Source of the DNA: Candidatus Methanoperedens nitratireducens
GTDB taxonomy: Archaea > Halobacteriota > Methanosarcinia > Methanosarcinales > Methanoperedenaceae
NCBI RefSeq assembly: GCF_900196725.1
Contig: NZ_FZMP01000228.1
Location: 1-46,145, forward strand
DNA length: 46,145 nucleotides
Direction of reading: 5' to 3'
Numbering within the stretch: position 1 is the first letter of the stretch; each line of letters opens with the position of its first letter. Below are positions 39,764 to 44,585 of the stretch, piece after piece. Made by a program: the position numbers and the translations under genes. The notes under the pieces are model-generated. The model ran no database searches, had not been told where the DNA came from, and worked only from the letters and a program-made list of their open reading frames with translations.

Positions 39764-40372
39764 TCACTTTTTCCCGGAGCCTCTTTTCCCAAAGCTGGCT
39801 TTTCTTAGCCTGGTATTCTGGTCGAAAAGTCCCATGAAAATCTTATTTTGTTTTGTTTCCCTGCTGTATTCGTCAAGCTGCCCCTCAAGTTCCCGTATCT
39901 TATCCTGGAGCTCATCTATCTTTGCATCCTTTTCTTCAAGCTCCTCTTCCAGGTTCTTAATCGTGACCTCCCGGCGATGTATTGTAAATTCCATCTTTTT
40001 CTTATCAGCCGGGTGTATAGACTGTACGGGTCTCCTGACCTTTATTTCGACCTTTTTTTCAAGTTCAGGTGTGGCTTTGCCCGGAACGGGGGCAGAAAGA
40101 AGGGACTCATCCACCTGTCTCCCTTTCAGTTTCTCGATATACAGCCTGGATATCCGGTGTTCCTCGGCAGAAAGGGTCCAGGAAGTTCCTTTATAGCGCT
40201 TTTCCTGGCATGCAAGATCAAGCAGCCTGTTTGTGGCAGGTATGCCCAACCAGCCAATGTTCTTATAATAATCTAAGAGACCGGGCAGGTTGTTTTGACC
40301 TACCCTCTCAAGCATGAACCGGAGCCACTTTCGTTGAGTCTCTATCGATATATCTGTGAGTTTTTCCAGCAT
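39764..40372 (-). CDS. FlaD/E-domain protein with coiled coil, partner of MamK-like actin
   Basis: A 202-residue protein. Residues 1 to about 85 resemble the archaellum accessory FlaD/E domain (Arch_fla_DE): RKWLRFMLERVG, LPGLLDYYKNIGWLGIPATN, then SAEEHRISRLYIEKLKG. Residues about 125-175 are a coiled coil with strong heptads (IKNLEEELEEKDAKIDELQ), and the end is basic (RKASFGKRGSGKK). FlaD/E domains bind FlaC and the archaellum base or connect it to chemotaxis proteins. No archaellin genes are near, so this is not a standard archaellum operon. It starts one nt after the stop of the actin-like gene, so they are co-translated. It could link the actin filament to the archaellum or other membrane complex (inference). 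Confidence 0.75.
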   Translation of the reverse strand: MLEKLTDISIETQRKWLRFMLERVGQNNLPGLLDYYKNIGWLGIPATNRLLDLACQEKRYKGTSWTLSAEEHRISRLYIEKLKGRQVDESLLSAPVPGKATPELEKKVEIKVRRPVQSIHPADKKKMEFTIHRREVTIKNLEEELEEKDAKIDELQDKIRELEGQLDEYSRETKQNKIFMGLFDQNTRLRKASFGKRGSGKK

Positions 40373-40373
40373 C

Positions 40374-41429
40374 CTACGCGCTGCTGTGCCAGAATTGCTT
40401 CGGCATGTCCATCGCCAGCTTTAATGCGCCATCCGCGCCACCGAAAACAGGGTCGGTGCATTTAAAGACCTTGCCGCCGTCGATGAGTTCAAGCTCACGT
40501 TCCAGGACCTTGTCAAGCTGTCTGATCTGGCTGCCTCCGCCTGCCAGCCAGATGTTGGAGCGCAGAGCATCCTGGAAATCAGGGTCATATGTAGAGATGA
40601 GCCTTGAGATCCCGCCCACGATATCAGGCAGTATGGATTCACATGCTTTCTTCATTTCCTGTGTAATTGTGAGTTTCAATACGGAAGAATCGACCGGGAC
40701 ATCCATGATAAGCTCTTCTTCCGGGTCGCCTACAAATGAATGCTGGTCTTTCCACCGCTTTGCCATTTCGGTTGTTACCCGGACATTTGTATACTGGTCT
40801 GAGATATGCTTCACAAGTTCCTTATCAATGAAGTTCCCCGCCTTATTGGTACTGATCTGGTCATCAGGTTCGGGGAGCGTGCCGTGGACGCGGCATAGAT
40901 CGGTGGTGCCTGCCCCGATATCGACTACCAGGGAATGCTCAAGCTGCCCGATATTATAAGCCACGCAGAATGGTTCGCTTGCTACCATTATACCGTCAAA
41001 GAACTCCTTTGCCATCTCGGTTATTATCTTTTTGCTCAGCACGCTTGCCTGTGCAGGCACTCCTACGATAGCGTACTTCTTGGCATTATTGGTCGCATCT
41101 ACAGAGTTCAGTACATAATCAAGCAATCCCTTTGCAGCTTCTATGTCCTCTCTCTGGTTTTTCAACACGCCGTTCTCGATCGGTTTGTATATATTAAGAG
41201 CGACCCTGTGGTGGATCGCTTCCTCTCCATACAGATGCTCTTTCTGCAGGAATTTTGAAGCGACAGCGTCTTTGGGGCTTCCTACCACGGTCAGAATGCT
41301 GTTCTTCTTACCATCGCTGGTCGAGATGGCTGTATGGTTTGTTCCCAGATCGATTCCTATATACATGGTCTTACCATCAGCACTTGCTGATTCAGTAGCG
41401 ATTTTGTTAGCTTTACTTTTTGATGCCAT
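40374..41429 (-). CDS. MamK-like actin homologue
   Basis: A 351-residue actin-fold ATPase. After a 20-residue Ser/Lys-rich tail come phosphate-1 loop GIDLGTNHTAIS, then VVGSPKDAVASKF, YAIVGVPAQASVLSKKIITE, phosphate-2 VVDIGAGTTDLCRV, the adenosine-binding NIWLAGGGSQIRQLD and the end ALKLAMDMPKQFWHSS. These, especially SPKD, VGVPA, ASEPFCVAYNIG and the terminal 'MP.QFW', resemble the magnetosome filament protein MamK more than MreB, ParM or crenactin. It probably polymerises in the cytoplasm. ATG 41429 follows GAGGA, with TATA-like ACTATATATTTAGG at about 41481-41494. It forms a two-gene unit with the FlaD/E-domain protein. Nothing magnetosome-like is nearby, so the cargo is unknown. Confidence 0.85.
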   Translation of the reverse strand: MASKSKANKIATESASADGKTMYIGIDLGTNHTAISTSDGKKNSILTVVGSPKDAVASKFLQKEHLYGEEAIHHRVALNIYKPIENGVLKNQREDIEAAKGLLDYVLNSVDATNNAKKYAIVGVPAQASVLSKKIITEMAKEFFDGIMVASEPFCVAYNIGQLEHSLVVDIGAGTTDLCRVHGTLPEPDDQISTNKAGNFIDKELVKHISDQYTNVRVTTEMAKRWKDQHSFVGDPEEELIMDVPVDSSVLKLTITQEMKKACESILPDIVGGISRLISTYDPDFQDALRSNIWLAGGGSQIRQLDKVLERELELIDGGKVFKCTDPVFGGADGALKLAMDMPKQFWHSSA

Positions 41430-41634
41430 AAGCTTTCCTCATTATAATTATTATGGTAATCATATAATTAGTGTTGTGCCTAAATATATAGTTTACGTAA
41501 CCTGAACCAAAAAGTAAATGTGCCTCTGCATAGCGGTCATTTTTTACGGTAAAATCCTAAAAAATGCCGCAGCGTATTGAATAAAGCGATTTGGCAATTT
41601 AGCAGTCAGTTTTGCGCTTTAACAGTTACATCGG

Positions 41635-42843
41635 TTATCTTCCAAGCGCAGCATGGGCATTTGAAAGATGCCTTGCTGCCAGCGCACCGATTAATGACAA
41701 CTCACCTGCCAGTATAGCCGCTGCGATTATCTCGGCAAGCTTCCTGGCGTTCGTACCGGGCGGGTTTCCTGCCCCTGCTACCCCAAGCATATTCAGGCAC
41801 TCCTGCTGCGTGCCTATGCGCGTTCCCCCTCCCACAGTTCCCACAGCCAGCGACGGCAATGTAACAGAGCAATAAAGCCCGTCATCTGCGGGTTCCATCG
41901 TTGTTATGGCATTGCTTGCCTCAACAACATGCGCCGGATCCTGCCCGCATGCAATGAACATGGCTGCTGCGATGTTCGCAGCGTGGGCGTTAAAGCCGAG
42001 CGAACCCGCGCGCGCCGAGCCCAACAGGTTTTTCCTGTAATTCACCTCAGCCATTTTCTCAGGTGTCGTGTGGAGTTTTTCCATAATTATTTCCTTTTCG
42101 ATTATTACATCGGCAGATACGGTCTTTCCCCTGCCCATTATAACATTGATTGCAGCAGGCTTCTTATCCGTGCACATATTACCGGACAGCGCAACGAGGT
42201 CAACGTCGTTCTCTTCAAGAACGAGGTCAACTGCCGCATCAGTAGCAATAGTGACCATATTCATGCCCATGGCATCCTTCGTATCATAGGCGAACCGCAG
42301 GTAAACGCTCCTCCCGGCCACGAACGGTTCAACAGAAAGCAACTCCCCGAAACGCGTCGTTCCTTCGGCTCTTTCTTTCAGGCGCTGGAAATGCCCGGAA
42401 ACCCATTCCACAAGATTTTTTGCACCGATCACGTCTTTTGCCCTGAAAACAGGGGCGCGCGTCATCACATCCCCGAATATCCTGACGTTCGCACCGCCAG
42501 AGGCTGAAATGACGGAGCATCCCCTATCGGCGCTTGCGACAAGCGCGCCTTCGGTGGTAGCAAGGGGGATGTAATAATTTCCATTTGCGTATTCTCCTTT
42601 CACCTGCAGCGGCCCCGCAACTCCCAGAGGGACCTGGACTGCACCTATCATATTCTCGATGTTGTGTTTTGTTACGTCCTCAGCGTCAAATGAAAAATTG
42701 CTTATATGTTTGAGCTCTGTCCCTGTAATTTCGGAAACCGCTGTTCGCCGCAGTTCAATCGCTGCTCCGGCATCAAGCATGTGACCGACCTCGTGGAAGC
42801 TCACATCGCCCTTTTTGAGTTTTTCAAGGAGTACCCTGTCCAT
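41635..42843 (-). CDS. hmgA: HMG-CoA reductase, class I
   Basis: A 402-residue NADPH-type enzyme converting HMG-CoA to mevalonate for archaeal isoprenoid lipids. Catalytic residues are readable: Glu in LATTEGALVASADRGC, Lys in CTDKKPAAINVIMGRGK, Asp in ACGQDPAHVVEAS, and His in LSNAHAALGR at the very end. The ENMIGAVQVPLGVAGPL region is the substrate-binding family motif. No membrane part is present, as usual in archaea. ATG 42843 is preceded by TATA-like TTTTTAAATACC about 25 nt away, giving a short leader. A second, class II enzyme sits two genes upstream on the same strand. Confidence 0.95.
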   Translation of the reverse strand: MDRVLLEKLKKGDVSFHEVGHMLDAGAAIELRRTAVSEITGTELKHISNFSFDAEDVTKHNIENMIGAVQVPLGVAGPLQVKGEYANGNYYIPLATTEGALVASADRGCSVISASGGANVRIFGDVMTRAPVFRAKDVIGAKNLVEWVSGHFQRLKERAEGTTRFGELLSVEPFVAGRSVYLRFAYDTKDAMGMNMVTIATDAAVDLVLEENDVDLVALSGNMCTDKKPAAINVIMGRGKTVSADVIIEKEIIMEKLHTTPEKMAEVNYRKNLLGSARAGSLGFNAHAANIAAAMFIACGQDPAHVVEASNAITTMEPADDGLYCSVTLPSLAVGTVGGGTRIGTQQECLNMLGVAGAGNPPGTNARKLAEIIAAAILAGELSLIGALAARHLSNAHAALGR

Positions 42844-43307: not shown

Positions 43308-44585
43308 TTAACGCTTACTTTTCTGCATCATCTCGTCCAGCAATTCCTTTGCCCTGTCAGCCCTGACCTTCCTTTCTTTGACCATTATCTCTGCTATCTT
43401 ATCCACCATATCTCCTGTGGCGCCTGCCTGGATAGCGACGTTCCTTGAATGAAGCCCCATATGTCCCCTCTGGATGCCTTCTGTGGCAAGGGCGCGCATG
43501 GCTGCGAAATTCTGAGCCAGTCCCAGCGCAGCAAAAACCTCGCCCATTTCCGTCGCCGTTTTTACGCCGAGGATTTTAACAGCCGCGCGGGCGATCGGGT
43601 TTGTCTTTGTTGCGCCGCCGACAAGACCTACTGCCATGGGCATCTCGATAGTGCCCACAAGGTCTCCGTTTGCGTTCTTCTCGTAGCAGGAGAGAGGGCG
43701 GTAGACTCCGCTGCGTGAGGCATATACATGCGCTCCGGCTTCGATGGCTCTGGTATCGTTCCCGGTAGCAAGAACAGCCGCAGTCACGCCGTTCATTATG
43801 CCTTTGTTGTGTGTTGCAGCACGGTACGAATCTCCTGCCGCGAAGTGATACGCAGCAAGAATGCCGTCCACGACATCTTCGCCGCCTATGGCTTCCTTTG
43901 TGAACACCGCCCTGGCTCTCATTATGCGCTTGTCCGCGAAATTCGAGATTATCCGAAGATATACCCTGCCGCCTGCTAATTCTTCAATATACGGGGCGAC
44001 CGTTTCAGCCATCGTATTCACGGCATTGGCTCCCATGGCATCCCGGCAATCCACCATCAGGTGCGTGATCACCATCTTACCGCCCGGCGTATCGATGACC
44101 CTTACTTCCACGTCTTTTGCACCGCCTCCGAACTTCACCAGTACAGGATCAACCTCGTTCGCGCGCCTGATAATCTCATCCTTTTTCTCAAGTATGTTCA
44201 TCCTTGCGCCGCTTGGGTCTGCAATCCCCACAGCCTGTATCTGGCCTATCATAACAGGACCTGTGCTGCTCGTTGTGAATCCGCCTCCATCCCGCGCCAT
44301 CTTTGCCGCATTGCTCGCCGCAGCTATGACCGAAGGTTCTTCTATCGCCATCGGGATAAGATAGTCTTTCCCGTTGATCTGGAAGTTGACAGCTACGCCC
44401 ATCGGCACTTCCATGACGCCTATTAAGTTCTCGACCATGCGGTCTGCGGCATCAAGGGACAGGGCGCCAGCGGCGCTGATGCTTGAAGCCTCTTCTTCTG
44501 TGAGACCTGAGAATTCGGATACGATCTTGAGCCTGTTTTCCGGGCTTAGCTTGTAGAAACCTGAGATTTTAGACGTTTTAGCCAT
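43308..44585 (-). CDS. HMG-CoA reductase, class II
   Basis: A 425-residue enzyme of the class II (Pseudomonas mevalonii/Archaeoglobus-like) branch: RLKIVSEFSGLTEEEASSI at the N-terminus, Glu in AIEEPSVIAAASNAAKMAR, Lys in ATHNKGIMNG, Asp in TGNDTRAIEAGAH and His in GHMGLHSRNVAIQAG. All four catalytic residues are present. The C-terminal flap (VDKIAEIMVKERKVRADRAK) is typical of class II. It may run with NADH or NADPH and act in synthesis or breakdown of mevalonate. Having class I and class II genes within 3 kb is unusual. ATG 44585 has CTCTTGAGGGTGTATC upstream, a weak GAGGGTG-type SD. Confidence 0.95.
   Translation of the reverse strand: MAKTSKISGFYKLSPENRLKIVSEFSGLTEEEASSISAAGALSLDAADRMVENLIGVMEVPMGVAVNFQINGKDYLIPMAIEEPSVIAAASNAAKMARDGGGFTTSSTGPVMIGQIQAVGIADPSGARMNILEKKDEIIRRANEVDPVLVKFGGGAKDVEVRVIDTPGGKMVITHLMVDCRDAMGANAVNTMAETVAPYIEELAGGRVYLRIISNFADKRIMRARAVFTKEAIGGEDVVDGILAAYHFAAGDSYRAATHNKGIMNGVTAAVLATGNDTRAIEAGAHVYASRSGVYRPLSCYEKNANGDLVGTIEMPMAVGLVGGATKTNPIARAAVKILGVKTATEMGEVFAALGLAQNFAAMRALATEGIQRGHMGLHSRNVAIQAGATGDMVDKIAEIMVKERKVRADRAKELLDEMMQKSKR

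Follow-up and report, generated by a model that had tools for sequence, protein, structure and literature searches.

The MamK-type actin and its adjoining candidate adaptor

The window analysed here (the whole stretch of 46,145 nucleotides) is contig C11 of Candidatus Methanoperedens nitratireducens, an archaeon whose 3.5 Mb genome is assembled in 250 contigs. Its minus strand encodes an actin related to MamK of bacterial magnetosomes, followed by a small protein, here called the adaptor, which combines a FlaD/E domain of the archaellum type with a long helix. The stop codon of the actin gene (40376-40374) and the ATG of the adaptor gene (at 40372) are separated by 1 nt, and both reading frames and this gap are as described in the initial annotation. 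The two genes probably form a filament-adaptor module. This reading is built on the family and fold match of the actin, the adjacency and conservation of the genes, the domain order of the adaptor and the co-occurrence of the pair with other genes. From these we infer polymerisation of the actin, binding of the adaptor tail to the filament and of its head to a cargo, and the identity of that cargo.

Among the actin families of NCBIfam, the MamK profile is the top scorer for the actin (393.7 bits), followed by BeeR (199.1), MreB (71.0) and salactin (44.4). The curated MamK cut-off of 400 bits is missed by 6 bits, and judged by its sequence the protein is a close relative of the MamK family, short of a certified member. 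The NCBIfam cut-offs of MreB are missed with 71 against 293 and 52.1 against 365.75 bits, and that of salactin with 44.4 against 400. In Pfam, the protein exceeds the cut-off of the broad MreB_Mbl model with 81.6 bits against 27, and so does a bacterial MamK-type protein with 62.7; the Actin model reaches 61.3 bits, and the broader Salactin model gives a weak match (34.8 against 27.1). The top sequence match in the PDB is MamK (5ljw, 265.6 bits), and the predicted model, with a pLDDT of 82.9 and low confidence in the N-terminal 18 residues, has the double-helical MamK filament 5ljv as its top fold match (TM 0.86/0.92). Crenactin and ParM were compared through the Pfam and PDB listings, and the tree described below held neither. 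The five actin motifs read by eye in the initial annotation are all present in the translation, and its preference for MamK over MreB agrees with the NCBIfam profiles, where MamK stands far above MreB, with the tree and with the best fold match.

The adaptor carries a true FlaD/E domain, as the initial annotation had proposed: PF04659 (Arch_fla_DE) is matched with 52.2 bits against a gathering cut-off of 21. In the structural model (pLDDT 83.0, pTM 0.50), a head made of helices is joined through a linker of lower certainty to a single 76-residue helix, which supports the suspected adaptor-like build. A coiled coil with a basic tail had also been expected. The C-terminus is indeed basic; the coiled coil corresponds to one long predicted helix, the pairing of which is likewise a prediction. 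Searches of the PDB gave no relatives of the adaptor: the lowest E values were 0.96 for sequence and 5.2 for fold.

Table 1. Positions of the two genes, their parts and the neighbouring features in the window.
Feature	Position	Strand	Basis
MamK-type actin, 351 aa	40374..41429	minus	profile, fold and alignment matches
FlaD/E-domain coiled-coil adaptor, 202 aa, starting 1 nt past the actin stop	39764..40372	minus	open reading frame, PF04659
FlaD/E head of the adaptor, residues 15-84	40121..40330	minus	PF04659, 52.2 bits; aligned in relatives
Long single helix, probable coiled coil, residues 121-196	39785..40012	minus	AlphaFold2 model, pairing predicted
Conserved tail, about residues 126-192, HRREVTIxNLE ... 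KIF ... QNxxL; candidate filament-binding segment	39797..39997	minus	
TATA-box-like stretch 5′ of the actin gene	41481..41492	minus	by eye
GAGG, which could be the ribosome site of the actin gene	41437-41440	minus	by eye
NADPH-type HMG-CoA reductase	41635-42843	minus	TIGR00533, 519 bits
"Degradative" NAD-type HMG-CoA reductase	43308-44585	minus	TIGR00532, 512.6 bits

Two genes for HMG-CoA reductases, each of a different class, are found near one another just upstream of the actin gene.

Conservation and variation of the pair

The actin was called at E 1e-10 or better in 54 of the 185 genomes of the order that were searched. The carriers comprise 19 genomes of Methanoperedens (g1, the genus of the window), six of the "ANME-2 cluster" family (f3), three of a Methanosarcinaceae genus (g27) and 26 of g23, which is mostly Methanolobus and is called so below; f3 and g1 are presumably ANME-2a/b and ANME-2d, respectively. 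In all 54 genomes a partner gene follows the actin gene directly and on the same strand (19/19, 6/6, 3/3 and 26/26), and the pair is therefore conserved among relatives. The 26 Methanolobus partners include 11 from mapped loci, 11 recognized by an N-terminal motif only and four from further loci, and the partner in G065, missed by gene calling, is part of the count. Measured to the first start codon, the gap between the two genes is 0-3 nt in the 18 mapped Methanoperedens loci (window included), -4 to 27 nt in 11 Methanolobus loci and 25-46 nt in nine others. The gene order around the pair differs between the lineages.

Trees of the archaeal actins with 39 or 36 bacterial MamK-type proteins place the archaeal sequences in one group with a support of 100/100 in both cases. 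Inside this group, Methanoperedens stands on one side, and f3, followed by g27 with Methanolobus (family f5), on the other, an arrangement that fits descent within the order combined with losses. Where this group belongs among the bacterial proteins is unsure (87/53), with MreB as the sole outgroup on a very long branch. Three outcomes had been named in advance as arguing against the initial annotation, and none of them occurred: the actin groups with neither MreB nor Hsp70, the FlaD/E match lies above chance level, and the pair is conserved. As early as 2009, the MamK branch was noted to contain archaeal proteins (PMC2651865). What is new here is a putative filament system that combines a MamK-type actin with an archaeal adaptor; the top-ranked literature listings, which leave subscription journals and preprints mostly uncovered, hold no account of the pair.

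The partners differ greatly between lineages in the length of the coiled coil. They measure 190-214 aa in the mapped Methanoperedens loci, and 630 aa in g27 (the single partner there that is not truncated by the edge of its contig). In 11 Methanolobus loci they have 487-607 aa, and two ANME-2 genomes encode partners of 1657 and 1940 aa. In the ANME-2 genome G019, the adaptor frame (L033, 1321-3987) ends at 888 aa and overlaps the next frame, of 423 aa, by 4 nt; the two frames are possibly pieces of one long gene that is interrupted either by the assembly or in the organism itself. The FlaD/E domain forms the head in Methanoperedens, f3 and g27, where all 17 proteins scanned, out of 28, pass the PF04659 cut-off. 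The scanned set contains all six f3 and all three g27 partners, and the remaining heads were aligned or matched. In Methanolobus the head was not found, with no Pfam match in four proteins and at most 2.5 bits to the head HMM in 11; a NIYRKP motif stands near the N-terminus, where the other partners have the head.

The tail is the segment common to all four lineages, as seen by a tail HMM and by alignment. Built without Methanolobus sequences and scored on the last 100 residues of the Methanolobus partners, the tail HMM matches 11 of 11 at 25.8-48.1 bits. As a control, 96 coiled-coil segments from the middle of long partners reach at most 17.3 bits, the 31 from Methanolobus at most 8.2. Because the tail is common to all lineages and the head changes, we take the tail to bind the filament and the head to bind the cargo, and the conserved C-terminal tail is likely the end that would contact the filament. 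Among 32 bacterial loci with a called MamK-type actin, several of which are shortened by contig ends, no match to the head or the tail was found at E 0.001; matches at chance level are those of the head in L116 (E 0.029) and of the tail in L107, L112 and L113 (E 0.24-0.91). The bacterial loci show an arrangement of their own: in 20 of the 32, among them L094, L095, L096 and L098, a relative of an N-acetylmuramoyl-L-alanine amidase gene lies directly upstream of the actin gene on the same strand. This combination spans several phyla, with Amidase_3 confirmed in the four loci scanned, and in terms of gene order actin plus amidase is a bacterial MamK-type gene pair.

The candidate ATPase residues of the window actin are E152 and D170, the latter opening the phosphate loop DIGAGTTD (170-177). 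By motif and spacing they correspond to E143 and D161 of MamK, the mutation of which is said to abolish ATPase activity (PMC5059902). The glutamate and the aspartate are both kept in 19/19 Methanoperedens actins, where the loop reads AGTTD 18 times and GGTTD once, and in 3/3 actins of g27. In f3 the catalytic glutamate is replaced by aspartate in 6/6. In Methanolobus it occurs in 15 of 30 alignment rows (some genomes are counted twice), and the loop departs from AGTTD, reading ASKTD, ASKLD, YSKTD or SHKTD, among other forms; the six commonest loops, each of them changed, make up 18 of the 30 rows. Such changed loops and missing glutamates mean that ATP turnover may be slow or absent in the Methanolobus actin. 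The same changes, together with the substitution in f3, would suit an actin-fold regulator which signals to its partner instead of building filaments. Such a protein is highly unlikely, given the intact residues of Methanoperedens and the close match to the filament-forming MamK.

A proposed role in placing chemosensory machinery

In the proposed mechanism, the actin would polymerise into a double-helical filament like that of MamK, as its fold and family suggest. The partner would bind this filament by the C-terminal tail, the part conserved in all lineages, the coiled coil would bridge a distance particular to each lineage, and the N-terminal head would hold the cargo. The likeliest cargo would be a chemosensory array or an associated polar assembly, and the filament may position it or apportion it when the cell divides, in the way that MamK and MamJ handle magnetosomes. 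Given such a module, the chance that its cargo is chemosensory or chemosensory-motility machinery appears even or slightly better. The complete explanation, a MamK/MamJ-like module placing chemosensory or other polar machinery, is the best available one, with a probability just short of even. Several reports connect FlaD/E proteins with chemotaxis and with the pole: in Halobacterium, FlaCE and FlaD bind proteins which also bind Che proteins (PMC2666748), the ArlCDE ring receives CheF and CheY-P (PMC9126983), and FlaD is polar in Haloferax (PMC6509185).

The chemosensory cargo is suggested by the distribution of CheW, which is found in 49 of the 54 actin-bearing genomes and in 73 of the 131 others (Fisher P 2e-6). 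When the labels are permuted within the four lineages, the 49 observed genomes compare with 43.7 expected (P 0.0018). Among genomes at least 90% complete, CheW occurs in 15/16 Methanoperedens with the actin and 3/7 without (P 0.017), and in 3/3 f3 genomes with the actin and 2/5 without (P 0.20). In at least 21 of the 26 Methanolobus genomes, CheW lies upstream of the actin gene on the same strand, with 1.4-17.6 kb between the starts of the matches; in four of the other five the contig breaks about 2-8 kb upstream, and G128 has no CheW in about 19 kb. An MCP gene and CheW are next upstream of the actin gene in L043, L044, L046 and L048, and in L042 ppk and ppx stand between the actin and MCP/CheW; CheR is called in four of these five loci. 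The Methanolobus MCP contains HAMP repeats and, in contrast to four receptors from G000, G015 and G019, lacks a strongly hydrophobic stretch. As a general cargo this HAMP-repeat receptor was rejected, with no match in Methanoperedens at E 1e-30. At that threshold it is strong in Methanolobus and the genus g24 and weak in G016, G018 and G021 (f3, with the actin) and in G023, G032, G158 and G166 (without it).

Several observations weigh against a chemosensory cargo. The genomes inside a lineage are related, and the P values thus overstate their independence. No CheW match was found in five of the 54 actin-bearing genomes, namely G055 (100% complete, with archaellins), G012 (79%), G066 (74%), G181 (60%) and G182 (73%), and the sole match in G183 is partial. 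Three Methanoperedens genomes at least 90% complete (G041, G042 and G069) have CheW and no actin, which means that the module is not needed for chemotaxis. The synteny with CheW in Methanolobus may be one inherited arrangement, and it includes polyphosphate genes too. In Haloferax, FlaD and CheW are reported to reach the pole independently of each other (PMC6509185), and MinD-family proteins, not actin, are named for the placement of such cargoes (PMC11588486). A related candidate, the pair as a replacement of CheF, was rejected: CheF was found in none of the 31 Methanoperedens genomes (G000, G041-G070), of which 28 have archaellins and 23 CheW, and since it is missing with or without the actin, the pair does not explain its absence.

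The initial annotation had also suggested a link of the pair to the archaellum base. In this form, the filament would anchor or position the archaellum motor, and the FlaD/E head would dock into the ArlCDE ring. The genome of the window does hold an archaellum locus on contig C241, with matches to archaellin, FlaJ and CheW, strong FlaD/E matches and, by eye, other Che genes. A protein in that locus has a FlaD/E domain which is matched over its length by the head HMM (72.7 bits), the polar FlaD of Haloferax would suit such a docking, and archaellins are found in 47/54 actin-bearing and 89/131 other genomes (P 0.01). Within the lineages this association disappears, with 47 observed and 46.4 expected under the same permutation (P 0.45). 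No archaellin match and no true FlaJ were found in four pair-bearing f3 genomes, namely G015 (100% complete), G019 (97%), G018 (80%) and G021 (83%), whose FlaJ-like matches reach at most 39.4 bits against at least 526 for true FlaJ. Each of the four has a single FlaD/E match, of the strength of the adaptor, and each does have CheW. The FlaD/E adaptor therefore occurs without an archaellum and is not restricted like ArlD and ArlE. Conversely, archaellins are present in 27/27 Methanolobus genomes, whose partner shows no FlaD/E head. A link specific to the archaellum is thus unlikely, and the alternatives offered in the initial annotation, chemoreceptors or another membrane structure, fit the data better. 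Two side observations belong here. Loci L168 (G015) and L169 (G019), from two of the genomes with no match to archaellin or true FlaJ, carry what by eye is a complete chemosensory cluster of CheA, CheB, CheC, CheD, CheR, CheW and receptors; and the Methanoperedens genomes G050, G054, G056 and G061, which have no actin, show two FlaD/E matches each, one of which might be an orphan adaptor.

The gene order in Methanolobus points to one more candidate cargo. In six loci (L041, L042, L045, L047, L050 and L051), genes for polyphosphate kinase and Ppx/GppA lie directly upstream of the actin gene, in most cases with a CHAD-type gene ahead (the families were scanned in L042 and L047), as would be expected if the filament positioned polyphosphate bodies. 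In a search of 34 genomes, PP_kinase occurs in 3/19 with the actin and 7/15 without; all three are Methanolobus, and the 16 others with the actin have none. The polyphosphate link is accordingly rejected outside Methanolobus, and placement of storage granules is extremely unlikely as the general function.

It is also conceivable, although rather improbable, that the pair is a general cytoskeleton. The actin with its coiled-coil partner would then give the cell its form or distribute DNA or some other large object, and the FlaD/E head would do no more than anchor the system at the membrane or the pole. An actin accompanied by very long coiled coils (to 1940 aa) resembles cytoskeletal pairs, and the CheW-less G055 is compatible with such a role. 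Salactin, an archaeal actin near MamK, is described as growing from the poles and may act in DNA partitioning (PMC10746226). For a housekeeping scaffold, however, both the patchy spread of the pair, with 131 of the 185 genomes lacking the actin, and its co-occurrence with CheW are unexpected.

Taken at its widest, the placement of chemosensory machinery would amount to a dedicated archaeal actin cytoskeleton of the sensory and motility pole, in which chemosensory arrays are positioned and apportioned by MamK-type filaments whose adaptors are exchangeable. Such a system might predate the split of Methanoperedens, the ANME-2 family and Methanosarcinaceae, each lineage having set its own adaptor length, and methane oxidisers that have no archaellum might have kept it for some purpose unrelated to swimming. 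This wider picture is doubtful. The placement of archaella and chemosensory arrays in archaea is only partly known, with the MinD family described in Haloferax (PMC11588486), and little work has addressed what archaeal actins do (PMC10746226). The pair offers a compact and conserved candidate of just two genes, with a head domain taken from the archaellum switch. As it also occurs in Methanolobus, of which strains are in culture, it may be feasible to delete and label the genes there, and the anatomy of head, spacer and tail can guide the finding of other actin-adaptor pairs. It also raises the question of why archaellum-less ANME-2 cells retain the pair.

Comparison with known systems

Crenactin, an archaeal actin of another family, has partner proteins called arcadins, and by this general description it resembles the pair in combining an archaeal actin with partners. 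Salactin, of Haloarchaea and other Methanotecta, is an archaeal actin as well and is reported to be closest to MamK (PMC10746226). The window actin differs from it in scoring 44 bits to the NCBIfam salactin profile and 394 to that of MamK. No salactin match was found in the genome of the window by a search that also missed the weak 34.8-bit match of the actin itself and is thus blind to weak ones.

ArlD and ArlE (FlaD/E) of the archaellum switch ring share the PF04659 domain with the adaptor, as the match of its head HMM to the archaellum-locus protein indicates. The domain order is reversed in the one protein compared: residues 195-281 of 297 in the archaellum-locus protein of the same genome, 15-84 of 202 in the adaptor. 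Unlike ArlD and ArlE, the adaptor is encoded outside the archaellum locus, judging by the printed matches in the genome of the window, and it is kept where archaellin and FlaJ are absent. A task of the kind proposed here is known from Haloferax, where the placement of the motility and chemotaxis machinery is ascribed to the MinD family, a ParA/MinD ATPase and not an actin (PMC11588486).

The nearest parallels are found in magnetosome organisation. In Desulfovibrio magneticus RS-1, the actin-like proteins MamK and Mad28 act with the Mad coiled-coil proteins (PMC12748827), and by description this combination of actin-like and coiled-coil proteins is similar to the archaeal pair. It differs in serving the organisation of the bacterial magnetosome chain, and FlaD/E is not mentioned in the accessible part of that source. 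The closest likeness is that to MamK and MamJ of Magnetospirillum. MamJ is reported to interact with the filament and with magnetosomes and to affect filament dynamics (PMC5059902). The archaeal actin is about 38% identical to MamK in the fold alignment, and the adaptor, which is likened to MamJ by description, differs from it in its FlaD/E head and coiled coil. The two systems share the actin family, by sequence and by fold, and, as proposed here for the archaeal pair, the principle of a filament with a separate adaptor that ties a cargo to it.

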